A stretch of 44,428 nucleotides of DNA from the IMG/VR virus record IMGVR_UViG_3300044815_000097, positions 1-44,428 of that record; one strand, 5' to 3'. Made by a program: the position numbers and the translations under genes. The notes under the pieces were generated by a model. The model saw nothing but the letters and a program-made list of their open reading frames with translations, did no database searches and was not told the DNA's origin. Numbering within the stretch: the first letter of the stretch is position 1; each line of letters begins with the position of its first letter. Of the stretch, positions 60 to 41,873 are shown one piece after another. This stretch comes from a virus.

Positions 60-275
60 GTGGCAACTCACCGAGAGGCCCTGGAGGCCATCAGGGACCG
101 CCTGACGAACGAACTGGCTCTTGCGGAGGGTCGAGACGTCGCGGCCATCTCCAAGGAGCTACGGGCCACCTGGGTCGAGTTGGATGCCATGCCGAACCCC
201 GAGGGCGTCCGCGCGCCGGCTGATGAGATCGCCCGGCGCCGCGAGGAACGCCGGTTGAAAGCAGCCGGCGAATGA
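60..275 (+). CDS. small terminase-side protein, candidate small terminase subunit
   Basis: A 71-residue, charged, mostly helical protein starting at GTG (MATHREALEAI...). Proteins of this size and type, with a conserved 'ALEAIRDRL' opening, commonly precede the large terminase in actinophages and are often labelled small terminase or hypothetical. Its stop overlaps the TerL start (ATGA), so the two are translationally coupled. No HTH is obvious, so DNA recognition at cos is inferred from position only. Confidence 0.55.
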   Translation: MATHREALEAIRDRLTNELALAEGRDVAAISKELRATWVELDAMPNPEGVRAPADEIARRREERRLKAAGE

Positions 276-1750
276 CCGTCATCGACCTGGCCAGCGCCGA
301 GCAGCCGCGGATCCTGCACGTGCCGCGCTACTCGACCTCTGCCGGCGATGAGGCTGTGGACCTGGCGGCCTCGGCCGGCCTGATCCTCGACCCGTGGCAG
401 GCGTACGTCCTGCGCAACTCGCTCGGCGAACGCCCGGACGGCCGGTGGTCGTCCTTCGAGGTGGGCCTGATCGTCGCCCGGCAGCAGGGGAAAGGCTCCG
501 TTCTCGAGGCGCGCGAGCTGGCCGGCCTGGTGCTGTTCGGCGAGCGGCAGATCGTGCACACCGCCCACGAGCTGAAGACGTCGATGAAGCACTTCAAGCG
601 GCTGGTCAACCTCTTCGACGGCTCGGCCGACCTGCGTAAGCGGCTCAAGAAGGTCATCAACTCCAACGGCAAAGAGGGCCTGGAGATGACCGACGGGGCC
701 GTGCTGGAGTGCTTGGCGCGGACGAAGAACGCGGGCCGCGGCTTCACCGGCGACCTGGTCGTGCTCGACGAGGCGTACGCGCTGACCGCCGACCAGATGG
801 ACGCGACGATGCCGACGATGCTCGCAGTCGACAACGCGCAGGTCTGGTACACCAGCTCCCCGCCGCTCGACGCCGTGTCGGGGCAGGTGCTCATGTCGAT
901 CCGGGACCGCGCCCAGACGGGCGAGGCACGTCGGCTGGCCTGGTTCGACTACGGCCTGGCCGGCAGCCTGGACCGCCTCAAGGGCATCGACCTTGACGAC
1001 CGGGGCAACTGGTACGCCGCGCTTCCGTCGCTGCGCTCTGGCCGGATCCGCGAAGAGAACGTCCAGACCATGCGGGACGTTCTGCCGACGGACGCCGGGT
1101 TCGCCCGGGAGATCCTGGGAATTTGGCCGCCCGGCCTGGGCGGCAACTTCCAGGTCATCCCCAAGGCTGACTGGTCTGACGCCCTCGACGACCAGTCCGA
1201 GATCGTCGGCCCTCTCGCCTTGGCGGCGGCGGTGTCGCTGGACCGGACCCGGTCGTCGATCGCCGCGTGTGGGCACCGCGCCGACGGGAAGCTGCACGTC
1301 GAGCTGACGTCGACGGCGCTGCGGGTCGACAACCGCAACGGCACCGGCTGGGTCGTTCCCCGCCTGGTGGAGCTGGCCAGCCGGAACACGCCGGCGGCGA
1401 TCGTCATGGACGAGTTCGGCCCGACCGGCTCTCTGATCGCCTCCGCCGAGGAGGCCGGGCTCTCGATCACCCGCGCCGGCACCGCGTCGGTAGCCCGGGC
1501 GTACGGCATGTTCTTCGACGCGGTGTCGGGCACGGACCCGGCGTCGCGGGTGTTGAAGCACCTCGGCCAGCCGGAGTTGTCCGCGGCGGTGGCCGGCGCG
1601 AAACGGCGCCCGCTGGGCGAAGGATTCACCTGGGACCGCAAGGCGGCGGAGGTGGACATCACCCCGCTGGTCGCCGTGACGAACGCGATGTGGGGGTTCG
1701 CCGTGCACGGCCATGTCGAAGCGCCTGCGCCTTGGGCGATGTACGCGTGA
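272..1750 (+). CDS. terL: large terminase subunit (packaging ATPase-nuclease)
   Basis: A 492-residue terminase that would cut concatemeric phage DNA and pump it into the prohead through the portal. The N-terminal ATPase half has a Walker A-like ARQQGKGS (residues 69-76), a Walker B LVVLDEA (162-168), and a likely coupling motif YTSSPP (193-198). The C-terminal half has acidic residues typical of the RNase H-like nuclease, D324 in VSLDRT and D380 in IVMDEFG. Length is normal for the family. The ATG overlaps the upstream stop. The next gene starts inside its last codons. Confidence 0.95.
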   Translation: MTVIDLASAEQPRILHVPRYSTSAGDEAVDLAASAGLILDPWQAYVLRNSLGERPDGRWSSFEVGLIVARQQGKGSVLEARELAGLVLFGERQIVHTAHELKTSMKHFKRLVNLFDGSADLRKRLKKVINSNGKEGLEMTDGAVLECLARTKNAGRGFTGDLVVLDEAYALTADQMDATMPTMLAVDNAQVWYTSSPPLDAVSGQVLMSIRDRAQTGEARRLAWFDYGLAGSLDRLKGIDLDDRGNWYAALPSLRSGRIREENVQTMRDVLPTDAGFAREILGIWPPGLGGNFQVIPKADWSDALDDQSEIVGPLALAAAVSLDRTRSSIAACGHRADGKLHVELTSTALRVDNRNGTGWVVPRLVELASRNTPAAIVMDEFGPTGSLIASAEEAGLSITRAGTASVARAYGMFFDAVSGTDPASRVLKHLGQPELSAAVAGAKRRPLGEGFTWDRKAAEVDITPLVAVTNAMWGFAVHGHVEAPAPWAMYA

Positions 1751-1944
1751 CCCGCCGGGAGACGTTCCTGCTGCTGGTCGTGGCCGTGGTGTTCATCGCC
1801 GGCGGTCTGGTGTGGCTGTTCGGCCCGTATGGGCTGGTCGGCTCCGGTGTCGCTCTGCTCGCCCTGGCCCTGTTCGGTGTTGACGTGAAGGAGCAGGGGC
1901 GACGTGGCGAAGCTGTGGCGACTGCTGACCGGTTCGGGGAATAA
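1747..1944 (+). CDS. small two-helix membrane protein between terminase and portal
   Basis: A 65-residue protein starting at GTG, overlapping the end of terL. Two hydrophobic segments (about residues 6-24 and 28-45) are followed by a charged tail. Its 3' end overlaps the portal start by 41 bases. Similar short membrane proteins are often found between terminase and portal in Streptomyces phages, with no established role. It could be translated mainly to couple portal expression. Confidence 0.7.
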   Translation: MTRRETFLLLVVAVVFIAGGLVWLFGPYGLVGSGVALLALALFGVDVKEQGRRGEAVATADRFGE

Positions 1945-3268
1945 GGCCTGGTCCGAGCCCCCGTTCTGGGAGTCGGACCCGTTGCGGTTGCCGTTCCTGC
2001 AGCCGAGCCCGCTGTACCCGGACCAGGAACGCATCGTCCACGACTTCGAGGGCTACATCGCCGGGGCGTACAAGTCCAACGGTGTGGTCTTCGCGTGCAT
2101 CCAGGCCCGCCAGCTGGTGTTCTCCGAGGCCCGGTTCCAGTGGCGGCAGTTCTCCAAGGGCCGCCCAGGTGACCTGTTCGGCTCCCCGGAGCTGTCCCTG
2201 CTGGAGCGCCCGTGGCCGGGCGGCACCACCGGCGAGCTGCTGGCCCGGATGGACGTCACCGCGTCGCTGGCCGGCAACTACTACGCCACCACCGCCGACG
2301 ACCAGGGCCGCCTCGGCCGGGCCGCGACCGGCCCCGGCCGCCGGATCGTCCACATGCCCCCGGACCGGGTCGCGATCGTCATCCACGCCGCGTCGGGCAA
2401 CCCGAACGACCTGGACGCGAAGGTCGCCGGGTACCTGTTCGAGCCGCGCGACGCCCTGGGTAGGCCGGGCGCGTCGGTGCTGCTCACCCCGGACGAGGTG
2501 TGCCACTACTCGCCGATCCCGGACCCGGACGCCCGGTTCCGGGGCATGTCGTGGCTGACGCCGATCCTGACCGAGGTCCAGGCCGACAAGGCTGCGATGC
2601 GGCACAAGCTGAAGTTCTTCGAGAACGGCGCCACCCCGCAGCTGGTCGCCTCGCTGAAGGAGACCGTCACGGCGGGCGCGTTCAAGGAGTTCGTCCAGAC
2701 CATGAACGCCAGCCACAAGGGTGTCGACAACGCCTACAAGACGCTGTTCGTGGGCGGTGGCGCCGACGTGAAAGCAGTCGGCGCGGACCTGCGGCAGCTG
2801 GACTTCAAGCAGACCCAGGGCCACGGCGAGACCCGCATCGCGGCCGCCGCCGGTGTGCCCCCGGTGATTGTCGGCCTGTCCGAGGGCTTGCAGTCGGCGA
2901 CGTACTCGAACTACGCGCAGGCGCGCCGCCGGTTCGCTGACGGGACGATCCGGCCGCTGTGGCGGATGGCCGCGGCCAGCTTGCAGAACCTGGTCACACC
3001 GCCCCGGGACGGCGCGGAGCTCTGGTATGACGACCGCGACATCGCGTTCCTACGCGAGGACCGCATGGACGTCTCCGAGATCCAGGCGAAGCAGGCGCTG
3101 ACCATCCGGTCCCTCGTCGACGCCGGCTACACCGCCGAGTCCGCGGTCAGCGCGGTCATGGCCGAGGACTTCACCCAGCTGTCCCACTCGGGGCTGTTCT
3201 CCGTGCAGCTCCAGCCGCCCGGCAGCACCACCCCACCTGCGCCACCGACCACCACCCGGGAGCCGTGA
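1904..3268 (+). CDS. portal protein (HK97/SPP1-type)
   Basis: A 454-residue portal, forming the dodecameric ring at the unique capsid vertex through which DNA enters and to which the tail is joined. The body resembles the PF04860-type portal family, with a conserved centre around EVCHYSPIPDPD (about residues 199-210) and the stretch GVPPVIVGLSEGLQSATYSN (about 317-336). Start is GTG, with AAGGAGCAGG upstream. The C-terminus is Pro/Thr-rich. Stop overlaps the protease start. Confidence 0.93.
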   Translation: MAKLWRLLTGSGNKAWSEPPFWESDPLRLPFLQPSPLYPDQERIVHDFEGYIAGAYKSNGVVFACIQARQLVFSEARFQWRQFSKGRPGDLFGSPELSLLERPWPGGTTGELLARMDVTASLAGNYYATTADDQGRLGRAATGPGRRIVHMPPDRVAIVIHAASGNPNDLDAKVAGYLFEPRDALGRPGASVLLTPDEVCHYSPIPDPDARFRGMSWLTPILTEVQADKAAMRHKLKFFENGATPQLVASLKETVTAGAFKEFVQTMNASHKGVDNAYKTLFVGGGADVKAVGADLRQLDFKQTQGHGETRIAAAAGVPPVIVGLSEGLQSATYSNYAQARRRFADGTIRPLWRMAAASLQNLVTPPRDGAELWYDDRDIAFLREDRMDVSEIQAKQALTIRSLVDAGYTAESAVSAVMAEDFTQLSHSGLFSVQLQPPGSTTPPAPPTTTREP

Positions 3269-3987
3269 TGGACACCAAGAACCTGCGCGTCGAGGTGAAG
3301 GACGCCGACAAGGGTCAGGTGTCGGCGGTCTTCTCCACCAACGACGTCATCGACTCCGACGGCGACGTCACCGTGAAGGGCGCGTTCACCGACGGCGCCC
3401 CGGTGCGGATCTCCGCCTACCAGCACATGTCCTGGTCCGGGGCCCTGCCGGTCGGCAAGGGCGTCCTGCGGGTGTCCGGCAAGGAGACCCAGCTCGACGG
3501 CCAGTTCTTCTTGCAGACCACCGCCGGCCGCGACACGTTTGAGGTCGTCAAGCAGATGGGCGACCTGCAGGAATGGTCGTACGGGTACGACGTCGTCGAC
3601 GCCGAGTTCGGTGAGCACGACGGCAAGAACGTCCGCTTCCTGAAAGCGTTGAAGGTCCACGAGGTGTCCCCGGTGCTGATCGGCGCCGGCGTGGGCACCC
3701 GAACCCTGGCCGCCAAGAGCGGCGGCCGCACATTCTCCGACGAGGCGACGCTGGTCATGGCCAGCGTGAACGCCCTCGTCGACCGCGCCGCGGACGTCAT
3801 GGCCATGCGGCAGGAAAAGGGCAAGGCGCTCGGCACCGATTCGTCGGTGCTGCTCGACCAGCTCGAGGGCCAGCTGAAACGGCTGTCGGGGCTGCTGGTC
3901 GCCGCTGAGGCCACGCCCGATCACACCGAGGAAGAGCTGCAGCGCGAGTACCTGCGCTTCCTCCAGTCCGCATCCCGCGTCGCGTAA
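3265..3987 (+). CDS. HK97-family prohead protease, possibly with scaffold tail
   Basis: A 240-residue serine protease that would mature the prohead by cleaving capsid delta domains. The catalytic His is likely H54 in QHMSW and the catalytic Ser S105 in EWSYGYDV, in the usual spacing of the U35/S78 family. The part after about residue 170 is helical and charged, and could act as scaffold. Start may be GTG at 3265 or ATG at 3268. It lies between portal and capsid, the standard order. Confidence 0.92.
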   Translation: MMDTKNLRVEVKDADKGQVSAVFSTNDVIDSDGDVTVKGAFTDGAPVRISAYQHMSWSGALPVGKGVLRVSGKETQLDGQFFLQTTAGRDTFEVVKQMGDLQEWSYGYDVVDAEFGEHDGKNVRFLKALKVHEVSPVLIGAGVGTRTLAAKSGGRTFSDEATLVMASVNALVDRAADVMAMRQEKGKALGTDSSVLLDQLEGQLKRLSGLLVAAEATPDHTEEELQREYLRFLQSASRVA

Positions 3988-3999
3988 GAGGAGACGATC

Positions 4000-5232
4000 G
4001 TGAATTTTCCCGCGCTCAAGGAGGCCGAGGGCCGCCTCGAGGCCAAGCAGAAGGAGTTGGCCGGCATCTTCGCCGAGGCCGGCCCCGAGATGGACATGGC
4101 GAAGGTCAAGTCCGTCGACGGCGACTCGAAGGCCAAGGTCGACCACATCCGCGGCCTGAACACCACCATGGACGAGCTGGGCATCGAGCTGGAGGGCCTG
4201 CGTGAGGTCGCGAAGGCGGCTGGCCGGGTCCAGGACAGTGACGAGCAGCGCGCGAAGGCATCCGAGCGTGGCGACGCCGCCGGGTCGGGCAAGCGCGAGA
4301 GCGGCGCGAAGTCGGTCGGCGAGATGTTCGTCGAGTCGAAGGCGTTTACCGGCCGGCAGGGCCACGCCGGTCCCGAGGTGCGCCTCGACATGGACCTGAA
4401 GGCCCTGTTCGACACCGCCGGCGGCTGGGTTCCGGAGACCACCCGCGGCCCGCGGATCGTCGACTACGTGACCCGGCCGATCCAGCTGATCGACCTGATC
4501 CCGAACACGACCACCGGGCAGACGGCCGTCACCTACATGGAGGAGACGACGTTCGTCAACAACACGGCGGAGATCCCCGAGGGCAGCCCGTACCCCGAGT
4601 CTGCGCTGGGCCTTGAGGAGAAGACCTCGCCGGTCCGGAAGATCGGCACGTACATCCCGGTGACGGACGAGACGCTCGAGGATGTGCCGCGCGCCCGGGG
4701 CTACATCAACAACCGGCTGCCGTTCATGGTGCGTCAGCGCCTGGACTCGCAGCTGCTCGTCGGGTCGGGTTCGGGCTCGAACCTGCGGGGCCTGCTGAAC
4801 ACCACGGGCATCCAGACCCAGGCCAAGGGCTCCGACCCGGTCCCGGACGCCGTCTACAAGGCCATGACCAAAATCAAGATCAACGGTCTGGCGATGCCGA
4901 ACGCCACGGTGTGGCACCCCAACGACTGGCAGGACGTTCGACTCCTGCGCACCACCGACGGGATCTACATCTGGGGCTCGCCGTCCGAGCCGGGCCCGGC
5001 CCGGATCTGGGGACTGCCCGTCATCGAGGCGTTCGGACTGACCGAGGGAACCGCCGTCGTCGGCGACTTCGCGAACTTCTCGGAGCTCGCCGTGCGCCGC
5101 GGCATAGACGTGCAGATCTCGAACAGCCACGCCGACTACTTCGTCAACGGCAAGCAGGCGATCCGCGCCGACATCCGGGTGGCCCTGGTCTTCTACCGGC
5201 CCGCCGCATTCGCCACCGTCACCGGCGTCTGA
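4000..5232 (+). CDS. major capsid protein (HK97 fold)
   Basis: A 410-residue capsid protein. Residues 1 to about 85 form a charged coiled-coil delta domain; a Gly/Ser/Lys linker follows (about 88-105), and the HK97-fold body starts near residue 125, with GGWVPETT near 141 and a typical end in RVALVFYRPAAFATVTGV. The delta domain would be removed by the upstream protease. GTG start with an AAGAGGAGA ribosome site 6 bases ahead. Confidence 0.95.
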   Translation: MNFPALKEAEGRLEAKQKELAGIFAEAGPEMDMAKVKSVDGDSKAKVDHIRGLNTTMDELGIELEGLREVAKAAGRVQDSDEQRAKASERGDAAGSGKRESGAKSVGEMFVESKAFTGRQGHAGPEVRLDMDLKALFDTAGGWVPETTRGPRIVDYVTRPIQLIDLIPNTTTGQTAVTYMEETTFVNNTAEIPEGSPYPESALGLEEKTSPVRKIGTYIPVTDETLEDVPRARGYINNRLPFMVRQRLDSQLLVGSGSGSNLRGLLNTTGIQTQAKGSDPVPDAVYKAMTKIKINGLAMPNATVWHPNDWQDVRLLRTTDGIYIWGSPSEPGPARIWGLPVIEAFGLTEGTAVVGDFANFSELAVRRGIDVQISNSHADYFVNGKQAIRADIRVALVFYRPAAFATVTGV

Positions 5233-12695: not shown

Positions 12696-15464
12696 GTGTC
12701 GGACACCTCTGTCGTCTTCAACGTGATCGGCAAGGAGCGGGTCGGTGGCGTCCTGGCCCGGGTACGGTCGCTGTTCCGATCGGCAGGCCAGGAAGCTCAG
12801 CGTGCTACCGGCGCCGCAGCGCAGTCGACGGAACGCCTCGATCATGAGATCCACCAGGTCGAGCGGTCGCTCGCCGAGCTGAACGCCGAGTTTGCGGCGA
12901 CCGGCAACAAAGAGCTGTTCGCGAAGATGAAACGCGACCGGTCCCTGCTTACCCAGCTCAAGACGGTGCGCAAGGAGCTGGGCGCGGTCAGCGGCGAAGC
13001 CGACCGGCTCGGCGGCGACGCAGACCGTACCGGGAACATGCTGTCGCGCCTCGGCGCGTCGGCAGGAAGCTCACTGTCGTCTGGCATGAACAACGCCGGT
13101 ACGGCGATGACCAACCTGTCGACCAACCTGTGGAACCTGATCCCGCTCCTGCTCGGCATGGCCGCCGCCGCGGCGGGCGCCGCCCCGGCCATGTACCTGC
13201 TCGGCGGGGCGATCGGGTCGCTGCCGGCCATCATCGCCGGCGCGGCGGCCGCCATGGCCGTGTTCCAGCTGGGCACGTCCGGGCTGTCCGAGGCGTGGAA
13301 GAAGGCCACCACCGCGACCAGCGGCGGAGCCAAGGCCGCCCGGGACATGACCTCAGCGCACCGTGCCGTCACCCAAGCGGCAAAGGAGGTCACCCGCTCC
13401 GAACGGGACGTCACCGACGCGTTGAAGCAGGTCCGGCAGGCTCACCTCGACGTCGCCGACGCTGTCCAGCAGGAACACCAGCGCCGCGGGCAGCTCAATC
13501 GGGATCTGGCCGGCGCGCGCCTCGACGAGCAGGACTCCGTCCAGGCGGTCACCGACGCCCAGACCGCTCTGAACGCGGCCCGGGCGAACGGTGCCCCACC
13601 GGACGAGGTCGAGGACCTGGAACGGGCCTACGAGCGGGCGGCGCTGCAACTGGACGACACCCGCGCCCGGCTGGGCGAGCTGACCCTGGAGCAGAAGAAG
13701 GCCGTCGCCACCGGGGTGCAAGGCTCGGCGCAGGTCGTCGCGGCGAAAGACCAAGAGGCCAAGGCGGTCCAGGGGGTCACTGACGCACAGGATCGCAACA
13801 AGGATGCGGTGCAGCGCCTCGCCGATGCCCAGAAGGCCCTCAACACCCCGGCTGGCGGCGGTGGCGGTGGCGGGCTCGCCTCGCCGAAGCTGGCCCCGGC
13901 TGCGCAGAAGTTCCTCAATGTGCTGCTGGGTTTGCGGCCGGCGTTCGAGAAGCTGCGCCTGGGCGTGCAGGAGAAGCTGTTCGCCGGGCTGGCCGACAAG
14001 TTCAAGACCATGGCCACGGCGTGGCTGCCTCAGCTGAACACCTCCCTGGGCCGGATGGCCACCACCTTCAACGGCATCGCGGGCAAGTTCATGGACACGG
14101 CGGCTAAGCCGGCGTTCATCACCAACATCGCCAAGGGCGTTGAGGGCGTCCGGTCGGCGTTCGACAAGGTCGGCCGGGTGGTGGCCGGGCCGCTGATGAC
14201 GGCGTTCGGGCAGCTGGCCGGCGTGTCGAAGCCATTCGTGGAGGCGCTCGGCGGCGAGGTCGCGAAGGTGCTCAGCGACTTCTCCGCGTGGATCGACAAG
14301 GTGTCGAAGAACGGCAGCCTGGACGTGTTCTTCACCCGGGCGACGGCCGTCATGAAGGACACGTTCGCCATGCTGAAGGACATCGGGTCGATCGCCGGAT
14401 CGGTCATGTCGATCCTGTTCGGCGCCGACCAGGACGTCACGATGTCGCCGTGGAACACCTTGAAGGTGTCCCTGGACAAGGTTGCGGCGTGGTTCAAGGA
14501 CCCGGAGAACCAGAAGAAGATCCAGGACTGGATCAACAAGATCAAAGAATTCGGCGTGTGGCTCGTGACCGACGCCATCCCGAAGATCGAACGCTTCGCC
14601 AAGAAGCTGGAGTCGTTTGCCAACAGGCTCAGCAATCCCAAGCAGCTGATCACCGACTTCTTCAACGCCATCAAGGACGCGGCGAAGCAGAGCCTCATCA
14701 GCATGGTGGTGGACCTCGCCACGCTGCCCGGCCGGGCGGCACGGGCGTTGGCCGGCCTCGGCCGTGCCATCGGGCCGGCAGTCACCCGAGGCATGGCGCG
14801 TCTGGGAGAGGTCATCGGCCGCGCCGCCGGTGCCGCAGTCCGGACGATGGTCCTGCTGCCCGGCCGGATAGCCGTCGCCCTGGCAACGCTCCCGGGCAGG
14901 GTTTGGAACGTCATCAAGGGCCTGCCCGATCTGGTCAGAAGAGGCGGCCCAGGGATGCACAACGCCGGCATGGACCTTGTGCGCGGCCTGTGGAACGGCA
15001 TCAAAGGCATGGGCGGATGGCTCATCAACAACGCTGTCGCATTCGGCAGCTCCATCGTCAAGGGGTTCAAAGAGGGCCTGGGCATCCACTCGCCATCCAA
15101 GGTGATGGCGACCCAGGTCGGCCATTGGATTCCGGCCGGCATCGCCGCCGGCATGGACTCCAACCGGCAGGCCGTCGTAGATGCCAGCAGCCGCATGTCC
15201 GGGCTGATCGGGATCGGAAAGCCCCGGCCGGTCGCAGGCTTCTCCAATGGCGCCCTTCGCCCAGCTGGCAGTCCGGCTGCGGCGTCCGGTGTCGCGACGG
15301 CTTCCCCGGCGGTCGGACCGACCGCCGGCGGTCGGACCGGCGGTGTGATCCGGTTCGAGGCCGGTGCGAATGGCGCGCTGGTCCAGGCGATCGTGAAGGC
15401 GCTGCGCTACGAGGTGCGCAGCGCCGGCGGCGGCAGCGCCCAGGCCCTGTTCGGTAAGGCCTGA
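12696..15464 (+). CDS. tape measure protein
   Basis: A 922-residue protein whose length would set tail length. It starts GTG. Residues about 48-110 and 210-370 are helical coiled coils, with a hydrophobic stretch at about 145-193, a run of Gly near 388, and helical repeats through the C-terminal half. Near the end it has GIHSPSKVM (796-804), followed by GHWIPAGIAAGMD, the hallmark end of tape measures of this type. No lytic transglycosylase or peptidase motif is visible. Confidence 0.95.
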   Translation: MSDTSVVFNVIGKERVGGVLARVRSLFRSAGQEAQRATGAAAQSTERLDHEIHQVERSLAELNAEFAATGNKELFAKMKRDRSLLTQLKTVRKELGAVSGEADRLGGDADRTGNMLSRLGASAGSSLSSGMNNAGTAMTNLSTNLWNLIPLLLGMAAAAAGAAPAMYLLGGAIGSLPAIIAGAAAAMAVFQLGTSGLSEAWKKATTATSGGAKAARDMTSAHRAVTQAAKEVTRSERDVTDALKQVRQAHLDVADAVQQEHQRRGQLNRDLAGARLDEQDSVQAVTDAQTALNAARANGAPPDEVEDLERAYERAALQLDDTRARLGELTLEQKKAVATGVQGSAQVVAAKDQEAKAVQGVTDAQDRNKDAVQRLADAQKALNTPAGGGGGGGLASPKLAPAAQKFLNVLLGLRPAFEKLRLGVQEKLFAGLADKFKTMATAWLPQLNTSLGRMATTFNGIAGKFMDTAAKPAFITNIAKGVEGVRSAFDKVGRVVAGPLMTAFGQLAGVSKPFVEALGGEVAKVLSDFSAWIDKVSKNGSLDVFFTRATAVMKDTFAMLKDIGSIAGSVMSILFGADQDVTMSPWNTLKVSLDKVAAWFKDPENQKKIQDWINKIKEFGVWLVTDAIPKIERFAKKLESFANRLSNPKQLITDFFNAIKDAAKQSLISMVVDLATLPGRAARALAGLGRAIGPAVTRGMARLGEVIGRAAGAAVRTMVLLPGRIAVALATLPGRVWNVIKGLPDLVRRGGPGMHNAGMDLVRGLWNGIKGMGGWLINNAVAFGSSIVKGFKEGLGIHSPSKVMATQVGHWIPAGIAAGMDSNRQAVVDASSRMSGLIGIGKPRPVAGFSNGALRPAGSPAAASGVATASPAVGPTAGGRTGGVIRFEAGANGALVQAIVKALRYEVRSAGGGSAQALFGKA

Positions 15465-15465
15465 C

Positions 15466-18198
15466 ATGGCCCTGTTCACCCCGGTCACCGAGCTCTTCAT
15501 CGACGGGTCCTGGGTCGACGTGTCCGACGACGTGCAGTACGAGACCGGTGTCGCCATCACCCGGGGCCGCGACGACGAACAGGGAACGATCACCCCGTCA
15601 CGGCTCAACCTGACCCTGAACAACCAGGATGGGATCTACTCCAACCGCAACCCCATGTCGCCCTACTACGGGCTGCTGGGCCGCAACACCCCACTGCGGC
15701 AACGCCAGGGCGGCATCGTGTCCCACCTGCGCATCAACGGCGACAGCGGCGGCAACGCGTCCGCACCGGACACTGCCGCCCTCGACATCGTCGGCGACAT
15801 CGACGTCCGCGCCGACATCGAGCCCGACACCTGGACGCCCACCCTCGACCAGGTCATCGCCTCGAAGACCAACCTGACCGGCGACCAACGCTCCTGGTAC
15901 ATGCAGCTGACCAGGTACGGGCGGATCGAGTTCGGGTGGTCCGCCGCCGGGACATTCCCCTACGAGCGGGTCTCGTCGACCGCGTCCGTCACGACCGCCG
16001 GCCGGGTGTCCGTCCGGGCCACCCTCGACGTCGTCTCCGGCGCGAACCACGTGATCACGTTCTACACCTCCGACTCGGTCACCGGAACGTGGACACAGCT
16101 CGGCCTACCCATCACCACAGCCGGCGCGACCAGCATCTTCGCCGGCACAGCCAACCTCGAGGTCGGCACCGGCAACAACGGGTCGACCGTGTTCACCGGC
16201 ACCACCGCGTTCCAGGGCAAGGTGTACCGCCTGCAGGTCCTGCAGGGCATCGCCGGCACGGTCCGCGCCGACGCCGACTTCTCCGCCCAGCCGATCGACA
16301 CCACCTCGTTCTCCGACGGCACGAACACCTGGACCGTCCTGGACCCGGCAGTCATCACCTCCGACGGGGTGCGGTTCTACGGCGAAGTCGCCGCCCTGCC
16401 GTCCAAGTGGGACCTCAGCGGGAAGGTGGTGTGGGCGCCGCTCGAGGCGGCCGGGATCACCCGCCGCCTCACCCAGGGCGCCCCGACCCTCCGCTCGCCG
16501 ATCTACCGCAACTTCCTGCGATACGGGCCGTCCGGGTACTGGCCGCTCGAGGACGGCTCCGAGTCGGAGACCGCCGCGTCCGCCGTCCCCGCCGGGCGTC
16601 CGGCCACGGTCAACGCTGTGACGTTCGCCGGCGACGACACCCTGCCCGGCGGCGACGTCGCGCTCACCCTCAACGACACCACCGCCCGGGTGAACGGGCA
16701 GGTCACCCAGTCCACCGGCGGCACCGGGTGGTCTTTCACGTTCTTCTTCAAGCTCCCGGCGATCCCCGGCGCGTCGAACCAGCTGATGTCGTTCTCGTCG
16801 TCGGGCACGGCCCAGCGGTGGGTCCTGTCCGTCACGTCGACCTCGTACCAGCTCGACGCCTACGACGTGAACGGGACCAGCCTGATCACGTCGGTGACCA
16901 CGTTCGGGACCGGCGCGGAACCGAATCAGTGGGTCGCGGTTCAGGTCGCCACGTCGGTGTCGGGCGCCACAGTTACCTGGTCGCATGTGTGGCATGCGGT
17001 CGGCGCCGACATCATCTACAGCGCCACCGGCACCTACGCCGGCACACCCGGGTCGGTGCGCGGCTGGTCCATCGTGGGCCAGTCCGCGCTCGTCGGCGCA
17101 GCGTTCGCCCACGTGTGGGCCGGCCCGAACGCCCTGCCGTTCGTCACGACCGAGTTCGAAGCCGTGTCGAACGGGTGGCGCGGCGAGCGGGCAGTTGCCC
17201 GGCTGACCCGGCTGTGCGCCGAGGAGAACGTTCCGCTGGTGGTCCGCGACCCGAACGGCGACTCCGCCCTGATGGGCCGCCAGGGCATCGGCACGTTCAT
17301 CGACCTGCTCGCGGACTGCGCCACCGCCGACCTGGGGATCCTGTACGAGCCCCGCGACCGGCTGGCGATCGGGTACGTCGCCCGGTCCGCCCTGTACGGG
17401 CAGCCGTCGCCGACCTTGTCGTACGGCACGCACATCGCGGAGCCGTTCGACCCGGTTGACGACGACCAGCAGCTGCAGAACCGGGTCACCGTGTCCCGGC
17501 CCGGCGGCAGCTCGGCGACCGCCCAGCAGGACACCGGCCCCCTGTCGGTCCTGCCGCCGCCGGCCGGCGTCGGCGTGTACGAGGCCAGCGCGGACGCGAA
17601 TGTCTACACGGACGACCAGCTGCCCGACGTCGCCGGGTGGCTGGTGCACCTCGGCACCCTCGACGCCCTGCGCTACCCGCAGATCACGTTGAAGCTGAAC
17701 AGCACGGCGTTCACCGGCAGCACCGCCGTGACCGCGGCCGCCGCCGGCCTGGACATCGGGCGGCAGCTGACGGTGGATTCCCTGCCGTCGTGGCTGCCAC
17801 CGGACCCGGCGGAAACCCTGATCCAGGGCTACACGGAGCGGATCACCCCGTACGACTGGGACCTGACGTTCAACACCACTCCGGGCGAGCTGTGGGATGT
17901 GGCGCACGCCGACAGCGCCCGCGTCGACACCGACGGCTCCACCCTCGCCGCCGGCGCGACGACCACCGCCACATCGCTGTCAGTCGCCTCGGTGGCCGGC
18001 GGGGTGCTGTGGACCCTCACCGCCGCGTCGTGGCCGTTCTCCATCGCCATGGGCGGGGAGAAACTCACCGTCACCGCGGTGGCCGGCGCAACGTCCCCGC
18101 AGACCCTGACCGTCACCCGGTCGGTCAACGGCGTCGTCAAAGCGCACCTCGCCGGCACGGCCATCCGGCTGTGGACCCCGTCGTACGTGGCCCTGTAG
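15466..18198 (+). CDS. large tail-tip protein, fused distal tail / tail lysin-like with lectin domains
   Basis: A 910-residue protein starting one base after the tape measure stop. Residues 1-90 resemble the opening of distal tail proteins (ELFIDGSWVDVSDDVQ). Two LamG/concanavalin-like beta domains follow (about 95-270 and 355-560; the second starts GYWPLEDGSESE). The C-terminal 300 residues resemble the hub half of tail-associated proteins. It would form the tip that meets the host surface. Only one small tail gene follows, so most adsorption functions seem to sit here. Confidence 0.8.
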   Translation: MALFTPVTELFIDGSWVDVSDDVQYETGVAITRGRDDEQGTITPSRLNLTLNNQDGIYSNRNPMSPYYGLLGRNTPLRQRQGGIVSHLRINGDSGGNASAPDTAALDIVGDIDVRADIEPDTWTPTLDQVIASKTNLTGDQRSWYMQLTRYGRIEFGWSAAGTFPYERVSSTASVTTAGRVSVRATLDVVSGANHVITFYTSDSVTGTWTQLGLPITTAGATSIFAGTANLEVGTGNNGSTVFTGTTAFQGKVYRLQVLQGIAGTVRADADFSAQPIDTTSFSDGTNTWTVLDPAVITSDGVRFYGEVAALPSKWDLSGKVVWAPLEAAGITRRLTQGAPTLRSPIYRNFLRYGPSGYWPLEDGSESETAASAVPAGRPATVNAVTFAGDDTLPGGDVALTLNDTTARVNGQVTQSTGGTGWSFTFFFKLPAIPGASNQLMSFSSSGTAQRWVLSVTSTSYQLDAYDVNGTSLITSVTTFGTGAEPNQWVAVQVATSVSGATVTWSHVWHAVGADIIYSATGTYAGTPGSVRGWSIVGQSALVGAAFAHVWAGPNALPFVTTEFEAVSNGWRGERAVARLTRLCAEENVPLVVRDPNGDSALMGRQGIGTFIDLLADCATADLGILYEPRDRLAIGYVARSALYGQPSPTLSYGTHIAEPFDPVDDDQQLQNRVTVSRPGGSSATAQQDTGPLSVLPPPAGVGVYEASADANVYTDDQLPDVAGWLVHLGTLDALRYPQITLKLNSTAFTGSTAVTAAAAGLDIGRQLTVDSLPSWLPPDPAETLIQGYTERITPYDWDLTFNTTPGELWDVAHADSARVDTDGSTLAAGATTTATSLSVASVAGGVLWTLTAASWPFSIAMGGEKLTVTAVAGATSPQTLTVTRSVNGVVKAHLAGTAIRLWTPSYVAL

Positions 18199-22178: not shown

Positions 22179-22257
22179 GGAATCACCCCAGACCGGCCCG
22201 GATCATGGCTCACGTTTGAGCTGAGCGGCTTTGGCCCTCTGACCAGGCACAACGAAA

Positions 22258-22288
22258 GCGGCCCACCCTCATCGTGAGGGTGGGCCGC
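22258..22288. terminator. bidirectional terminator between convergent genes
   Basis: A 13-bp perfect stem, GCGGCCCACCCTC (22258-22270) with GAGGGTGGGCCGC (22276-22288), and a five-base loop. A CTTCTT stretch follows on the + side and TTTCGTT on the - side, so it can stop both the holin candidate and the leftward operon. Confidence 0.85.
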
Positions 22289-22301
22289 CTTCTTGCTGTG
22301 C

Positions 22302-22538
22302 TCAGGACGCGTCGCGCTGCACCGAGCGGATCTGGTTCCAGATCCGCCGGCCGATCCGCAGTCGCCGTCCGGTGCCTTTGCACCACCAGCAGTTGCGGAA
22401 CACCTTGCCGTCCTTGCGGGAGTGCCGGCCGCTGCCGTCACAGCACCAGCAGTTCGCGAACGGCCACCACGCGCAGCCGCCGACATAGAAGATGGTCACC
22501 GCGGCGAGGATGCCGAGGCCGATCAGCGTTGCCTTCAC
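22302..22538 (-). CDS. membrane-anchored zinc-finger (DnaJ-like CxxCxGxG) protein
   Basis: A 78-residue protein starting at GTG with GGAGG ahead. A hydrophobic N-terminal segment (about 3-24) is followed by two CxxC-GxG units, CWCCDGSG and CWWCKGTG, as in the DnaJ central zinc finger. Similar short proteins occur in actinobacterial integrative elements. It lies last in the leftward direction, separated from the TraB-like gene by a repeat-bearing gap. Confidence 0.72.
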   Translation of the reverse strand: MKATLIGLGILAAVTIFYVGGCAWWPFANCWCCDGSGRHSRKDGKVFRNCWWCKGTGRRLRIGRRIWNQIRSVQRDAS

Positions 22539-22562
22539 GGGGGATCCTCCGGGTGAATGTTG

Positions 22563-22727
22563 GTAGCACGACCCGTGCTACCGGTAGCACGGGTGAGAGA
22601 TCGCCGTGCTACCGGGCCGATGGCCTCTGAGCTGGGAAAACTCACGCAGGTAGCAAGTAGCGCGACTGCAGGCCCCCACCCTCGAAACGGCCCAGAGGGC
22701 GCTCCGGGGGGTGCGGGCCCGTGCTAC
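22563..22727. repeat. octamer cluster GTAGCACG / CGTGCTAC, candidate transfer locus (clt) or operator
   Basis: Five exact copies of one octamer lie in the 191-base gene-free gap: GTAGCACG at 22563-22570 and 22584-22591; its reverse complement CGTGCTAC at 22574-22581, 22605-22612 and 22720-22727. Related GTAGCAAGTAGCGCG is at 22650-22664. Copies alternate in direction. The cluster is directly downstream of the TraB-like gene and upstream of the last - strand gene. In Streptomyces plasmids TraB pumps bind 8-bp repeats (TRS) in clt sites near their gene, so clt is a good reading; an operator for the downstream gene is the alternative. Confidence 0.6.
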
Positions 22728-22729
22728 CG

Positions 22730-24850
22730 CTACTTGCTCTCGACCTGCCGGCGCTGCATCGCCGCCTCAAGAGCGGCCAGGTCGAAGCCTTGACCCTTGC
22801 CCTTCTCGAAGTGCTTCGGGTCATGCACTGACTTGCCGGCCACACCCAGGTCGCGCAGCTGCGCAGAGATCGCCGCAGGGGTCAGATCGGCGTAGTGCTC
22901 CGGCATCTCCTGCGACATCCGGGCGGCCAGCTCCGGCCACGAGATCCGGGCTTCGCCGGCGTAGAACACCGACCGGGCGTCCGCCATGACGTCGCGAGCC
23001 AACCGCGCGGCTTCCTCGCCGATGGCGGCACCGGACAGCGTGCCGAGGCGCTCCCGGTGACGGCGAGCCGCGATGAGGATCTTCTCCGCGTCCCCGTGGT
23101 CAGCGAGGAACGTCCGGACCGTCGGAGTCAGGTCAGACGCCCCGTAGAGGATGCCGACACCGCGATAGTCCTTCGTCCCGTTCGTCCCGTCACCGATCGG
23201 CAGCGCGGACGCGTCGTAGCCCTCTGAGTAGGCGTCGCCGCCCAGCACGGCCTCGCTGACCAGGCGGTTGCCGCACCGCAACGCGAAGCGGACCTGGTGG
23301 TTGTCGCGGAACCGGTTGAACAGCCGCCCCACGTCGCCGGAGCCGACCCCGGAGGGCTTCTGTGAGCTGTCCAGCAGGATCACGCCGGCGGACGGGCCCT
23401 GCGCCATGATGCGGCCCCACTTGCCGGCGATCCGCTTGTTGTAGTCCTGGTCCTCGGTTTCGAAGTAGACCTGGAACTCCTCACCAGCCACCACCCACAC
23501 CCGCAGGGCCGGGTACCGCGGGTCCCGGGCCAGCTCCTCGGTGAGCTTGCCTTCGGGGCACATCTCCACCGGCAGCGACGACAGGATGTCGTTGACCTCG
23601 GCGATGTGGGCGAGGACCTCGTCGAGCATTTCCTCCAGGTGGGTGAGCGGGTCGTTGTCGCGAGGGTTCGGGGCGTCCCCGACAACCCACCGGTGCGCGA
23701 CCAGGCGGAACTTGTCGTAGTCGGAGCTCTTCTTCCCGTCCGCGCCGAGGATCTTCACCCACGGGTCGAGCGCCGCGAACAGCAGGATCAGCCGCACGAA
23801 GAACGTCTTGCCCCGGCGCGGCATGGCGCCGATCAGGATCGAGTTCCACAGCAGCGTCAGGGTGACGAGCCGGTCCCGCTCGTCCTTGCCGAGCCGGATC
23901 GCCCGCCAGATGTTGCGCTGCTTCAGGTCGAGCATGTCCGTGCGCCCGACCGGGATGGCCAGGGGGTCCTGGTCGGCGACGAACAGCTGATGGCGCCGCT
24001 CCGACGTCTTGTCCTTGGTGAGGAACACCTGCTGGGCGGTCACGTCCAGCCCCGAGGCGATCTTCTCCTTGACCTTGACCGCGTCGGCGAAGCAGCCGCC
24101 GAACGGCAGGTGGACGACGACCTGCGACCCGCTGTCCCTTTCGTCGCGCGACATCTGCGACCCGAAGTCGATGACCTGGTCAGGCTTGTTCGGGTTGCCC
24201 AGGTTGGCGGCGTAGTAGGCGCGCAGCACCACGTCGGAGTTGATGCGGCGCTGCGCGTGGGCGACCACCGCGGTCCGGACGATCGGCTTGTTCGCCGGCC
24301 GGCCCAGGTGCGCCAGCCCAGGCAGGGCGGTGAGGATCGCGAGGACGGTCACCCAGGTGGGCTGGTTCATCAGGACCACCACCACGACCACCGCGGCGAC
24401 CAGCTCGGCGAGCAGGATCAGGCCGCGGAACAGGCGGATCGCCCGGGCCTTGTCGTGCAGCTTGTCCCACTCGGCGGCGTCGCCGTTGCTGGCGGCCTGC
24501 TGCCGCAGCTTCGACGACTCGTCCACCCACCACCAGCGGATCTGCCTGCCCAGCAGGGCAAACACGCCGACCAAGCCCCAGAACACGGCCAGGGGCAGGT
24601 ACTGGAACGGCAGCCGCACCGCGTGCACGGCGGTGCGGTGCGCGGCCAGGTGGGTGTTGCGCTTGACGGTCTTCTTGATCCCGGCGACGGTGCGCAGGTT
24701 CGCCGGGATGATCGGCACCAGCTCGTGGGTGCGGGCGATCACGTCGACGAAGACGGGCGCCCGGTCGGGGCGCGGCTCGTCGTCGTCGAGGGCCAGGTCG
24801 TAGTGCGAGTCGTACGTCTGCGACCCGTCGGCGGGGACCTGCTCTGCCAT
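22730..24850 (-). CDS. TraB-like DNA translocase (FtsK/SpoIIIE family)
   Basis: A 706-residue membrane pump of the kind that moves double-stranded DNA between Streptomyces mycelia. Order: an acidic N-terminus, hydrophobic segments near residues 84-101 and 141-182, then the ATPase domain with Walker A GAMPRRGKT (341-349), a Walker B-like VWVVAGEE (451-458) and a conserved DSSQKPS (494-500). The last 75 residues (ISWPELAARMSQ..., LTPAAISAQLRDLGV) look like the winged-helix DNA-recognition part. Walker B has Gly-Glu-Glu where Asp-Glu is usual. An AAGGAGG ribosome site precedes the ATG. Chromosomal FtsK is unlikely: too short, and in a transfer-type operon. Confidence 0.87.
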   Translation of the reverse strand: MAEQVPADGSQTYDSHYDLALDDDEPRPDRAPVFVDVIARTHELVPIIPANLRTVAGIKKTVKRNTHLAAHRTAVHAVRLPFQYLPLAVFWGLVGVFALLGRQIRWWWVDESSKLRQQAASNGDAAEWDKLHDKARAIRLFRGLILLAELVAAVVVVVVLMNQPTWVTVLAILTALPGLAHLGRPANKPIVRTAVVAHAQRRINSDVVLRAYYAANLGNPNKPDQVIDFGSQMSRDERDSGSQVVVHLPFGGCFADAVKVKEKIASGLDVTAQQVFLTKDKTSERRHQLFVADQDPLAIPVGRTDMLDLKQRNIWRAIRLGKDERDRLVTLTLLWNSILIGAMPRRGKTFFVRLILLFAALDPWVKILGADGKKSSDYDKFRLVAHRWVVGDAPNPRDNDPLTHLEEMLDEVLAHIAEVNDILSSLPVEMCPEGKLTEELARDPRYPALRVWVVAGEEFQVYFETEDQDYNKRIAGKWGRIMAQGPSAGVILLDSSQKPSGVGSGDVGRLFNRFRDNHQVRFALRCGNRLVSEAVLGGDAYSEGYDASALPIGDGTNGTKDYRGVGILYGASDLTPTVRTFLADHGDAEKILIAARRHRERLGTLSGAAIGEEAARLARDVMADARSVFYAGEARISWPELAARMSQEMPEHYADLTPAAISAQLRDLGVAGKSVHDPKHFEKGKGQGFDLAALEAAMQRRQVESK

Positions 24851-24851: not shown

Positions 24852-25301
24852 TCAGCCCTCCTTCCGTTGCGCTAACCGGTACTGTCGCCTGCGCGCGCGG
24901 GCGCATTGGCGGCACTGACGCCCACCGTTCGTCATGATCTTTGTATTCCTATCGTCGAACTCGTGACCGCGAATGCAGTGCGTCTTGGCTGCGTTGATCG
25001 CGGCCGGCGCGGTTCCGCGCAGGATGTTGGTCCGCTGGGTCGCTGGCTCAAGATGGTCGGGAGCGACGCACCAGGTATTGCCACAGAGGTGGTCCAGCGT
25101 GAGTCCTTGAGGGATCTCGGAGATCCACACCTGATAGGCGAATCGGTGAGCCAGGATCTGCCGATACACGTAACAGAAGCGGCCATACCCACAGTTGTTG
25201 AAGTGGCTGGTCCACCGCATACATCCGTTCGCGTCAGGTAACCGTATGCTCTTATGGAACCGGATCTTGTCCGCATGGTTCAGCCATCGGAGTTCAATCA
25301 C
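24852..25301 (-). CDS. HNH endonuclease, probable homing insertion
   Basis: A 149-residue HNH nuclease. The core is AHRFAYQVWISEIPQGLTLDHLCGN and CVAPDHLEPATQRTN, with H and N residues in the usual places; the C-terminus has HCIRGHEF and CRQCARARRR. It starts GTG with GAGGAG ahead. It lies between small operon genes and the TraB-like gene, and its DNA is clearly poorer in GC and less biased at third positions than the neighbours, which suggests recent arrival as a free-standing homing nuclease. Confidence 0.88.
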   Translation of the reverse strand: MIELRWLNHADKIRFHKSIRLPDANGCMRWTSHFNNCGYGRFCYVYRQILAHRFAYQVWISEIPQGLTLDHLCGNTWCVAPDHLEPATQRTNILRGTAPAAINAAKTHCIRGHEFDDRNTKIMTNGGRQCRQCARARRRQYRLAQRKEG

Positions 25302-25941: not shown

Positions 25942-26088
25942 CTACTTGCTCCCCTTCCTGCTGTCACGGCGCATCTCCACGACGGCCTTGACTGTCGCCG
26001 CAGGAACGCTTTTGCCCTGGTCTCGGTACTTGCCGACCCGCCGGTCGAGCTCCTGCAGCTTCCGGACCGCGTCGTCTCTACTCACCAT
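25942..26088 (-). CDS. tiny helical protein, transfer operon
   Basis: A 48-residue basic protein (MVSRDDAVRKLQELDRRVGK), likely two helices. Its start overlaps the stop of the SpdB-like gene (TGATG). A longer in-frame reading upstream lies wholly in that gene and was not used. Confidence 0.65.
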   Translation of the reverse strand: MVSRDDAVRKLQELDRRVGKYRDQGKSVPAATVKAVVEMRRDSRKGSK

Positions 26089-27005
26089 CAGTTGCTCTCC
26101 TTGCTCTCGGAACGGGACAGGTGGCGCAGGGCGCAGCCCATGCCGAACACGGCCACCGGGATGCACGCCACCACCGTGGTGATCTCCCACGGGGCGTGCT
26201 CGATCCCCGCCGCGACCATCAGGTGGTAGGCGACCTGGCCGCCGGCGCCCAACACCAGGGATCCGATCGCGGACCACTTCGCGAACGTGCGGGCGACAGC
26301 CGGGACGGCCCCCGACAGCCAGATGTAGGTCGCGTACGCCGCGTACGTCTCGAGGCCGATCGGGAGGGTGATCGCGGTGTTCAGGGCGACGTCGTCGAGG
26401 ATCCCCGGCAACGGGTGGACAACACCGAAACCGGTGAGCCTGCCCAGGTCCACCCACCCGGACCAGATCGCTACGAACGCGGGCAGGGCGAGGAGGAACA
26501 CCGGCCACGTCCGCGGTGGGCTGGCCGGCTTCGGAAGCGGCCGGTCAACGGCGACGGCGGGTGTTTCCAGGACCGCGACCGGCGGGGCGGCGAAAGCCGG
26601 GACCGCCACCGGCCTGACCGGGCCCAGCGGGCGGTCCGAGATCGGGTCGGCGGGCCACTCGGACGGTGTTTCCACAACCCTGCTGAGGTGCGCAAAGTCC
26701 GGCCCGTGGTCGTAGAAGACCGGCGACGGCATGGGGCTGACCGGGTTGCCCCAGGAACGGGGCGGCAGCGGCCGGGCGGGGCGTTTCTGCGTCGCTGCGG
26801 CCGCGAGGCGGCGCATGTTCGTCCGGGCCTGCTGGCGGCGCCGCTGGCGGTCCTCGGTGAGGGCGTCGAGAACGGCCGCCGCCTTCGGCAGACCCACCCG
26901 CAGCTCCTTCATCAGGGTGCGCTTCGACAGCGGACCCGGGACCCGCCGGGCGACGTCCTTAGCCGCCGGCAGCAGCTCTTCAACCTCGGTGCTAAAAACG
27001 GTCAT
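26088..27005 (-). CDS. SpdB-like membrane protein, DUF2637 type
   Basis: A 305-residue protein. Residues 1-70 are a basic helical part with a winged-helix look (GPLSKRTLMKELRVGLPKAA); 75-165 is a Pro-rich linker; 168-300 holds four hydrophobic segments in the order of DUF2637 proteins (VFLLALPAFVAIWSGWVDLG, then ALNTAITLPIGLETYAAY). DUF2637/SpdB proteins in Streptomyces plasmids and AICEs help spread transferred DNA along the recipient mycelium. The N-terminal part may contact DNA. Overlaps both neighbours by one base. Confidence 0.8.
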   Translation of the reverse strand: MTVFSTEVEELLPAAKDVARRVPGPLSKRTLMKELRVGLPKAAAVLDALTEDRQRRRQQARTNMRRLAAAATQKRPARPLPPRSWGNPVSPMPSPVFYDHGPDFAHLSRVVETPSEWPADPISDRPLGPVRPVAVPAFAAPPVAVLETPAVAVDRPLPKPASPPRTWPVFLLALPAFVAIWSGWVDLGRLTGFGVVHPLPGILDDVALNTAITLPIGLETYAAYATYIWLSGAVPAVARTFAKWSAIGSLVLGAGGQVAYHLMVAAGIEHAPWEITTVVACIPVAVFGMGCALRHLSRSESKESN

Positions 27006-29530: not shown

Positions 29531-29553
29531 GGTTCGAGTCCTCAGCAGGGGCC
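29531..29553 (+). other. candidate attP core, tRNA T-arm-like
   Basis: GGTTCGAGTCCTCAGCAGGGG contains GGTTCGAGTCC, the T-loop and inner stem of a tRNA, and overlaps the 3' end of the integrase gene (stop at 29542-29544). Integrases of this kind often use a tRNA 3' end as attB with the attP core beside int. The 3' part does not fit an acceptor stem I can name, so the tRNA identity is open. Confidence 0.45.
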
Positions 29554-30411
29554 AGGGCTGAATGTGGGGAGCGTCTGGATAGCAGCCAGACGCTCCTCGT
29601 TCGTCACCAGGGTGTAGATCGCGGTCGTCGTCGGCGACGAATGCCGCATCAGCTCCTGAGTACGGCGGATGTCCTTCGTCGTGCGGTACAGATTCGTGCC
29701 GTACCAGTGCCGCAGTCGGTGCAACCCCACCCCCGGCATGCCGAGGTGACGCCGGAAGTAGACCGCCGTGCGGATGCTGACCCACTTCGCGTTGGCCGGC
29801 TCCCCCACGTCATTCCATGCCACCGGCCCCCTGGGCAGGTCTTTCACGGCGTCCCAGATCGCCGGATGAGTGGGCAGCACCCCCGGTCGCCCACCCTTCC
29901 CGGCCAGAACGAGCAGGTTGTCCTCGGTGATGTCCTGCCTACTCAGACCGGCGATCTCGATGGACCTCAGGCCGGCATAGGCGCCGAAGAGCGCCCAGGT
30001 CCGATAGGGCTCGGCAGACTCGGTAAGAATGCGACGCAGCTGGGCGTCAGAAACAGGCCTGGGTAGGCCCCGAGGGCTCTTTGGGCGGGGCAGCAGCGCG
30101 GACGGGTCGAAGTCGAGCTTCGGGTCGTACGGGTTACATGCCCACACGAAGAACGCGCGAACGGTGCCGTAGTACGCCTCGCGCGTGGCTGGCCCGAAGC
30201 GGTCTTGGTAGACCCAGGCGGACAGCTCGACGGAGGTAGCAGCTTCGATGCCGTAGGGCATCGCCGCGTTAATCCGCCCGAGGATTCCTTCACGGTGGGT
30301 GATGGTGCGCGGTGAGCTGTTGCGCTTCCGCAGCCACTCCAGATATTGGTCGATCAGTGGACTCATGCTGGTCATGCTGCGTTTACGGGGACGCAACAGG
30401 GAAGAGGTCAC
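29542..30411 (-). CDS. int: tyrosine site-specific integrase
   Basis: A 289-residue recombinase that would integrate and excise the element. N-terminal SAM-like core-binding domain (about 16-100). Catalytic residues: Arg149 in AGLRSIEI, Lys172 in GKGGRPG, His231-x-x-Arg234 in HRLRHW, His257 in RHSS, Tyr266 in AIYT. All are present. The GTG start overlaps the repressor stop (GTGA), so the two are co-translated; an ATG 36 bases inside (30375) is an alternative start. A terminator and the candidate attP sit at its 3' end. Confidence 0.93.
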   Translation of the reverse strand: MTSSLLRPRKRSMTSMSPLIDQYLEWLRKRNSSPRTITHREGILGRINAAMPYGIEAATSVELSAWVYQDRFGPATREAYYGTVRAFFVWACNPYDPKLDFDPSALLPRPKSPRGLPRPVSDAQLRRILTESAEPYRTWALFGAYAGLRSIEIAGLSRQDITEDNLLVLAGKGGRPGVLPTHPAIWDAVKDLPRGPVAWNDVGEPANAKWVSIRTAVYFRRHLGMPGVGLHRLRHWYGTNLYRTTKDIRRTQELMRHSSPTTTAIYTLVTNEERLAAIQTLPTFSPGPC

Positions 30412-41676: not shown

Positions 41677-41873
41677 CGTCCATGGCCTCCACAAACCTGT
41701 CACCCCTGACCACCCCCCACAAACCTGTCACCTGCCACCTGAGCTGCGCAAACGCCTCAGCGATCCAGGTGACAGGTGACAGGTGTGACAGGTTTCTGAA
41801 CTTATCGAAAGAACGTGCGCACACACATGCATGCACATGTCCGGCGAACCTAGAAAACCTGTCACCTGTCACC
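41596..41873. repeat. iteron-like cluster CCTGTCACC, candidate replication origin
   Basis: Seven exact forward copies of CCTGTCACC: 41598, 41619, 41640, 41696, 41724, 41858 and 41865 (start positions), plus two exact reverse copies GGTGACAGG at 41768 and 41775, with near copies at 41784 and 41731. The first three are 21 bases apart and lie inside the primase gene; the rest are in the gap before the next gene. A less GC-rich stretch (41790-41860) sits among them. Repeat array, AT-richer DNA and a primase-helicase alongside make an origin the best reading; an operator is possible. Confidence 0.72.

Follow-up and report, generated by a model that had tools for sequence, protein, structure and literature searches.

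A candidate clt locus of NGTAGC repeats beside the TraB-like translocase gene of a siphophage-type genome

An ordered array of NGTAGC(RC) sites, present on both strands, adjoins the 3' end of a TraB-like translocase gene in the siphophage-type genome of a phage of soil bacteria. We interpret it, with a probability of about 0.83, as a clt-type locus read by the winged helix of the element's own translocase, binding and transfer being inferred. The array, the spacing of its sites, its location at the end of traB, the concerted change of its letters and their link to three residues of the wing are established by sequence comparison; a TraB-read clt of new specificity is the best reading of these facts, in the absence of binding data.

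Results

A multi-site array between traB and the next gene

The window (the whole stretch that was analysed, a complete IMG/VR record of 44,428 b) contains six copies of the octamer GTAGCACG counted on either strand, five of them within 22563-22727, for a chance expectation of 0.92 in the whole record (100 dinucleotide shuffles; the maximum was 4 and none reached 6). The five exact copies noticed in an earlier sequence-only reading are thus real. They lie at 22563-22570 (+), 22574-22581 (-), 22584-22591 (+), 22605-22612 (-) and 22720-22727 (-) and have the 9-mer GGTAGCACG in common; the sixth copy falls within the tape-measure gene (12801-12808). That reading had the octamers alternate in direction and fill a gap 3' of the TraB-like gene. 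The gap exists, from the traB stop (22730, minus strand) to the start of the zinc-ribbon ORF (22538, minus strand), and the alternation is correct for the first four copies but breaks down at the fifth (+ - + - -); the gap is not filled, four octamers lying within 50 b and the fifth 107 b off. Nor are the octamers, present as they are, the whole story: a relaxed motif adds GGTAGCaAG at 22649 (+), aGTAGC at 22656 (+) and a site at 22729-22734 (-) that overlaps the traB stop codon (22730-22732). With these overlooked degenerate sites, the array becomes a conserved multi-site layout in inverted orientation (Table 1). It includes the palindrome GCTACCGGTAGC, and its sites stand at +0, -15, +21, -46, +87, +94, -161 and -167 from 22562, the canonical -33 site being missing.

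Clustering alone is little proof, because the record holds stronger repeat clusters elsewhere (33190-33460 and about 41600-41870), and the case rests on comparative evidence. The cluster at 33190-33460 consists of 22.6 copies of a 12-b unit, GGCCGCCGCTCG, whose length is a multiple of three, and is perhaps a coding Ala-rich repeat. At 41596-41870, AACCTGTCACC and its reverse complement recur many times, in part as a 21-b tandem (2.6 copies, 100% match), across the 3' end of the primase-polymerase gene and the DNA beyond; these look like phage replication iterons.

Table 1. Features of the window discussed in the text (strand. marks a feature on both strands)
Feature	Coordinates	Strand	Remarks
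Phage head module: terminase large subunit, portal, prohead protease, major capsid protein	272..5232	+	
78-aa zinc-ribbon ORF, CxxC...CxxC	22302..22538	-	weak DnaJ-like match, E 0.0095
Whole array, candidate clt	22562..22734	.	NGTAGC sites, both strands
Site 1, GGTAGCACG	22562..22570	+	
Perfect 24-b palindrome, array centre	22571-22594		formed by sites 2 and 3
Site 2, GGTAGCACG	22574..22582	-	
Site 3, GGTAGCACG	22583..22591	+	
Site 4, GGTAGCACG	22605..22613	-	canonical offset 46
Tandem pair GGTAGCaAGTAGC, 7-b period, degenerate	22649..22661	+	canonical +86/+93 pair; compare L055, L056, L062
Tandem pair AGTAGC-GGTAGCACG, 6-b period	22720..22734	-	canonical -160/-166 pair; overlaps traB stop codon
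TraB-like FtsK/SpoIIIE-type translocase, 706 aa, P-loop GAMPRRGKT	22730..24850	-	phrog_1358 FtsK/SpoIIIE-like, E 4.4e-12
C-terminal winged-helix domain, residues 618-706, proposed reader	22733..22999	-	from structure model
Wing hairpin: S674 (beta2), H676 (beta2), K685 (beta3)	22796..22831	-	motif-tracking residues
Membrane-protein ORF in traB operon	26088..27005	-	no Pfam match
Tyrosine integrase	29542..30411	-	PF00589, E 3.8e-10

A TraB-like pump in a phage-type element

We took motor homology to a tested TraB as one criterion for a TraB-type pump, and the window pump meets it: by tblastn it matched 33 plasmid records, every one below 60% identity, among them pSVH1 (match H19; E 3e-23, 29.8% over residues 245-605). 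No Pfam family matched the pump at E<=10, nor any of the 8 members of A1 at E<=0.1. It accordingly fails the PF01580 FtsK_SpoIIIE match, which, in the portions of PMC3218068 available, is the criterion of a survey and not a definition of TraB. An NCBIfam search for a name gave sub-threshold noise only, and a PDB search by sequence found no relative. For the C-terminus, we modelled residues 600-706 (the last 107) with 53 relatives, at a mean pLDDT of 83.4 (block means 83-94 from residue 21). The model has the order H-E-H-H-H-E-E-H, with a helix at 59-68 and strands at 74-77 and 86-91, and both fold comparisons returned winged-helix folds of many families, at modest scores (top Z 6.7); FtsK gamma was absent from the listed matches, an absence that carries no weight either way. 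The winged-helix-like end suspected from the sequence is therefore supported by model and comparisons alike, as a prediction.

The traB module lies between the late/lysis genes and the integrase, inside a genome that also carries tail, primase-polymerase (Prim-Pol) and RuvC-like genes. Searches of a phage collection with DNA and protein found no close relatives of the window phage. A zinc-ribbon homolog follows traB in 54 of the 61 loci compared, and homologs of the membrane-protein ORF lie upstream of traB elsewhere (tblastn matches in 20 loci; 39-73% identity among the 14 matches listed). Directly upstream of the window traB is an HNH endonuclease gene (24852-25301), shared among the compared loci only by L002/L054 (75.8%). 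Just past the zinc-ribbon ORF, a strong stem-loop (22258-22288; 14 pairs, 11 of them G-C, followed on the + strand by a T-rich tail) is likely a terminator between the + and - gene blocks.

With head and tail genes beside integrase, Prim-Pol and TraB, the window is a phage-type element; it does not meet the definition of an AICE (integrase, replication and Tra modules without virion genes). Its chromosomal relatives look like AICEs, judged from gene content: Prim-Pol lies <=5 kb from traB in 8 of the 9 loci that were checked, from 7 of 8 genomes, and an integrase is near in G001, G006 and G007. In a portal search that covered 32 of the 63 loci L009-L071, no phage portal was found anywhere in 9 of 14 chromosomal-relative genomes, and one was found in 10 of 18 viral records.

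Relatives carry the array with varying letters and a conserved spacing

Loci were drawn from scans (7 loci) and then from genomes (45) and viral records (18). After exclusion from the recount of L002-L008, which duplicate L054-L058, L065 and L066, 64 loci remained (the window and L009-L071); three were dropped (L036, whose gene runs off the contig without a stop; L046 and L053, whose frames are broken) to give 61, from AICE-like elements and phages. TraB of this superfamily occurs in 109 of 300 genomes of one actinomycete family. When the traB 3' flank of each locus was searched for over-represented words, the commonest motif was GGTAGCGG, others being GGTCGCGG, GGTAACG, GGTAGG, TGTAGCGG, TGTTGCGG, CGTAGCG and TGTGCCGCG. 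De novo clusters of 7/8-mers at E<=1e-5 occurred in the flank of 48/61 loci, compared with 23 of 1216 control windows taken within these 61, and in 10/61 loci a non-flank window had a stronger repeat than the flank. At least four core hexamers per 200 b were reached in the flank of 55/61 loci and elsewhere in the locus in none (0/61). A short-repeat cluster beside a tra gene, the mark of a clt, is thus present in the window, and the expectation that relatives would also carry repeats after traB is fulfilled relative to control windows. Within one array, the letters of the copies change in concert.

The canonical array starts with sites at +0, -15, +21, -33 and -45/46 and ends with two tandem pairs, one +/+ with a 7-b step (76/83 or 86/93) and one -/- with a 6-b step (~149/155 or 160/166). 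In L056 the offsets are 0, 15, 21, 33, 46, 86, 93, 160 and 166; along the + strand from 22562, those of the window are 0, 15, 21, (none), 46, 87, 94, 161 and 167, and because the two series match, the window array is the canonical array inverted relative to traB. A template of the first five positions (2 b tolerance), drawn post hoc from the training loci, was fitted at four or more positions by 35/61 of them. The window fits 4/5 in the inverted orientation, equalled by 0 of 300 random placements, and the best fit was likewise inverted at p <= 0.01 in L057, L058, L060, L061 and L069, making six training loci with the window. In an independent set, 39/41 new loci fitted 4 or 5 positions, all in the canonical direction, with a mean fit of 4.32 vs 2.01 for random placement.

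Motif letters co-vary with residues of the predicted wing

We scanned 671 alignment columns of 61 proteins for co-variation with the motif. Column 731 (window H676) tracked base 1 best (z 10.5, the runner-up reaching 7.1), and column 729 (window S674) did so for bases 4-6 (z 6.6, runner-up 5.9); column 741 (window K685) followed for base 4. The motif variants arise several times on a tree built from the motor part. Phylogenetically independent pairs among 101 proteins (L071 left out) were then compared: column 731 differed in 8/9 pairs differing in base 1 vs 5/28 pairs with the same base (rank 1/662; p 2.5e-4), column 729 in 7/7 vs 6/28 for bases 5-6 (rank 1/664; p 2.6e-4) and column 741 in 8/9 vs 10/28 for base 4 (rank 4/658; p 7.1e-3). 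A smaller first test of this type had not singled out column 741 for position 4 (rank 332/651). After correction for ~660 columns no single test is decisive (Bonferroni 0.16-0.17 for the best two); the weight of the co-variation comes from the fact that all three columns map to a single hairpin of the domain predicted to read the DNA, and not from the uncorrected p-values. The residues that track the motif letters thus sit mainly in the wing hairpin, and not in helix alpha-3, which has been named for pSVH1.

Several observations qualify this link. In the 54 loci with a zinc-ribbon protein, two motor columns were best for positions 4-6 (z 5.4), the wing columns 741 and 729 coming next (z 5.0 and 4.9). 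Identity over the whole domain separated same from different motifs mainly in close pairs (motor identity >0.70) and did not at 0.55-0.70. Exceptions are L023 (N at 731, mostly GGTAGC), L032 (R and P, GGTAGC) and L062 (A at 731, GGTAGC). The window wing is of the 'HF' type, for which the alignment of the three columns is less sure, and the motif of L060 was re-read as CGTTCC once the spacing was known and used so in the template, flank-count and independent-pair tests.

The motif can be forecast from the pump in new loci

A rule giving the hexamer from the wing residues, trained mostly on the other (non-'HF') wing type, was fixed before new loci were fetched. Removal of 27 loci of distant subfamilies and of 21 duplicates from the 89 new ones left 41 loci of the window's subfamily. 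The rule named the right hexamer in 39/41, compared with 11/41 for the nearest neighbour by motor and 13/41 for a constant GGTAGC; its misses were L154 (S at 741, yet GGTCGC) and L114 (no call). GGTCGC is the motif of 27/41 new loci, 23 of them from one family search, so independent successes are far fewer than 39. The distant TraB subfamilies (27 loci, L115-L141, same bacterial family) have mostly CGCTAG/CTAGCG-like clusters, one GGTCTAGA, those of L119 and L141 being weak.

In one pair of near-identical elements, L060 and L061, reading domain and array were exchanged together at the traB 3' end. The two share ~98% over more than 1,000 b of the motor; reading domain, array and the beginning of the next gene then differ, until near-identity returns about 400 b past the traB stop; their arrays, in shared register, read CGTTCC vs GGTAGC.

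Comparison with known systems

As a control, we ran this word search on the 3' flank of pSVH1 traB, and it returned GACCCGGA (5 copies, the first 15 b after the stop). We take this octamer to be the recognition site of pSVH1 TraB, although no printed confirmation appeared among the matches listed in a literature string search. The window octamer GTAGCACG differs from it, in line with the earlier remark that it departs from the best-known one. Both systems have short repeats just 3' of homologous traB genes, found by the same search. In the flank of pSVH1, GACCCGGA has four copies on one strand and one reversed, whereas the window has NGTAGC on both strands, a layout as in AICE-like elements and co-varying residues in the wing. 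The pSVH1 TraB also has a C-terminal winged helix, which reads 8-bp motifs through helix alpha-3 (cited second-hand in the portions of PMC3583192 available). According to the same partial source, the clt of pWTY27 (16 b inside traA and 159 b beside it, footprinted by TraA) overlaps a tra 3' end, as the window array does; its repeats are TGACACC/CCCGCCC, and those of the pJV1 clt CCGCACA(C/G)(C/G), in both cases direct and inverted, with no shared spacing described there (PMC3583192, in part).

The chromosomal relatives resemble AICEs in having Prim-Pol and integrase near traB, and the window differs from AICEs in its terminase, portal, protease, capsid and tail genes. Replicons that combine phage and tra genes also include the Streptomyces plasmid-phage pZL12 (from a title cited in PMC3583192) and, by annotation, pPaSha2 (L164), a complete circular phage-plasmid of Pseudonocardia with terminase, portal, protease, capsid, holin and a TraB-like gene. 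The pPaSha2 TraB is only 27.9% identical to that of the window, a neighbour gene of its traB is annotated DUF2637, and 4 TGTAGC sites, weak as a cluster (E 2e-3), lie after its zinc-ribbon gene. At about 16680-17220, pPaSha2 has a tight AAAGGGGC cluster (6 copies per 360 b), possibly an origin or partition site. No description of a clt array in pZL12 or pPaSha2 was found in the parts of the sources covered.

Alternative explanations

That the sites form an operator, bound by a regulator or by TraB itself and controlling the zinc-ribbon gene at 22538 or the traB operon, is suggested by the position of the array directly 5' of that gene and by the palindromes inside it, and dual use is possible. 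We nonetheless consider an operator alone, which the sequence-only reading had named as an outcome that would refute its clt proposal, to be very unlikely: a second cluster at another promoter was seen in 0/61 loci, no sigma-70-like promoter was detected in 22200-23000 (by a scan blind to other promoter types), some elements have the array turned round against the genes with unchanged spacing, and the TGTAGC sites of pPaSha2 lie past the zinc-ribbon gene, which directly follows traB. For motif position 1, TraB column 731 reaches z 11.3, the best zinc-ribbon column z 5.3. A regulatory role is not excluded, given that the next gene begins right beside the array. The zinc-ribbon protein could instead own the site, for stability or partition; it has two CxxC pairs, its homolog adjoins the array in 54/61 loci, and SpdA2 of pIJ101 binds palindromes in its own gene (PMC4170104, in the parts available). 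This is highly improbable in our judgement: the 7 loci in which no homolog was detected (L038, L040-L042, L064, L066 and L070) all have the array, and L060 and L061 differ in array although they have most of the zinc-ribbon end of the gene in common. The contrast is weak for positions 4-6, where the best zinc-ribbon column reaches z 5.1 and the best TraB column 5.4.

Array and TraB end might also co-vary without contact because they travel in one recombination block, and L060/L061 is such a block moving as a unit. Hitchhiking of this kind is very unlikely to be the explanation, as GGTAAC goes with V or P at column 729 convergently in dissimilar domains (L018, L051, L067 and the new L113), the best-linked columns lie in one hairpin, and all copies of an array change together. 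An origin made of replication iterons, or a partition centromere of the phage, is barely credible: the repeats are indeed ordered and include palindromes, but a better iteron candidate follows the primase-polymerase gene (about 41600-41870), the letters follow residues of TraB, and AICE-like elements and phages alike keep the array next to traB.

FtsK and SpoIIIE read octamer-sized sites, KOPS/SRS, through a C-terminal winged helix, and these sites are dispersed and polar over the chromosome. The window sites are octamer-sized too but clustered at one place, and a KOPS/SRS-like guide motif, which requires a dispersed, polar distribution, was rejected: 5/6 octamers lie in one gap. The octamer count suggested for such a use thus spoke against it, with one copy elsewhere in the record and 0-2 copies of the palindromic core per host genome (11 genomes).

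Discussion

The reading of the array as a clt locus made predictions that could be examined in silico, and these held: repeats follow traB in relatives, their letters co-vary with C-terminal residues of the pump (columns 731, 729 and 741), and the motif could be forecast from the pump sequence in 39/41 new loci. Specificity of the repeat for the C-terminus of its cognate TraB rests on co-variation and forecast data only, with no binding assay. In the proposed mechanism, TraB would dock on the array sites and seed one or more hexamers, which would pump the double-stranded DNA of the element through the septum or hyphal tip to a neighbouring cell. The motif letters would form a private address, so that each TraB would load mainly on its own element.

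A phage carrying tra genes is not new in itself (pZL12). For the NGTAGC motif, its spacing or the wing code, we found no description in the literature to the extent available, including PMC4170104, PMC3218068, PMC3583192, PMC9513070, PMC11652158 and PMC12857230, and our claim of novelty is limited to these sources. As the module lies within a siphophage genome, the phage may also travel by TraB-type conjugation. More tentatively, and with somewhat less belief than doubt, we propose that the wing code is near-deterministic (676 for base 1, 674 for bases 5-6, 685 for base 4), that reader and array form a portable, orientation-independent and exchangeable cassette, and that phages conjugate.

If this is true, a swap of the cassette would change transfer identity, and temperate phages would spread by double-stranded DNA conjugation as well as by virions. 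On the main reading, the array gives a large group of elements (the superfamily found in 109 of 300 genomes) an address that can be read from sequence, with a forecast rule that is testable by single-residue changes. Such an address would predict which elements share or hijack a pump, and would flag phages that may conjugate.
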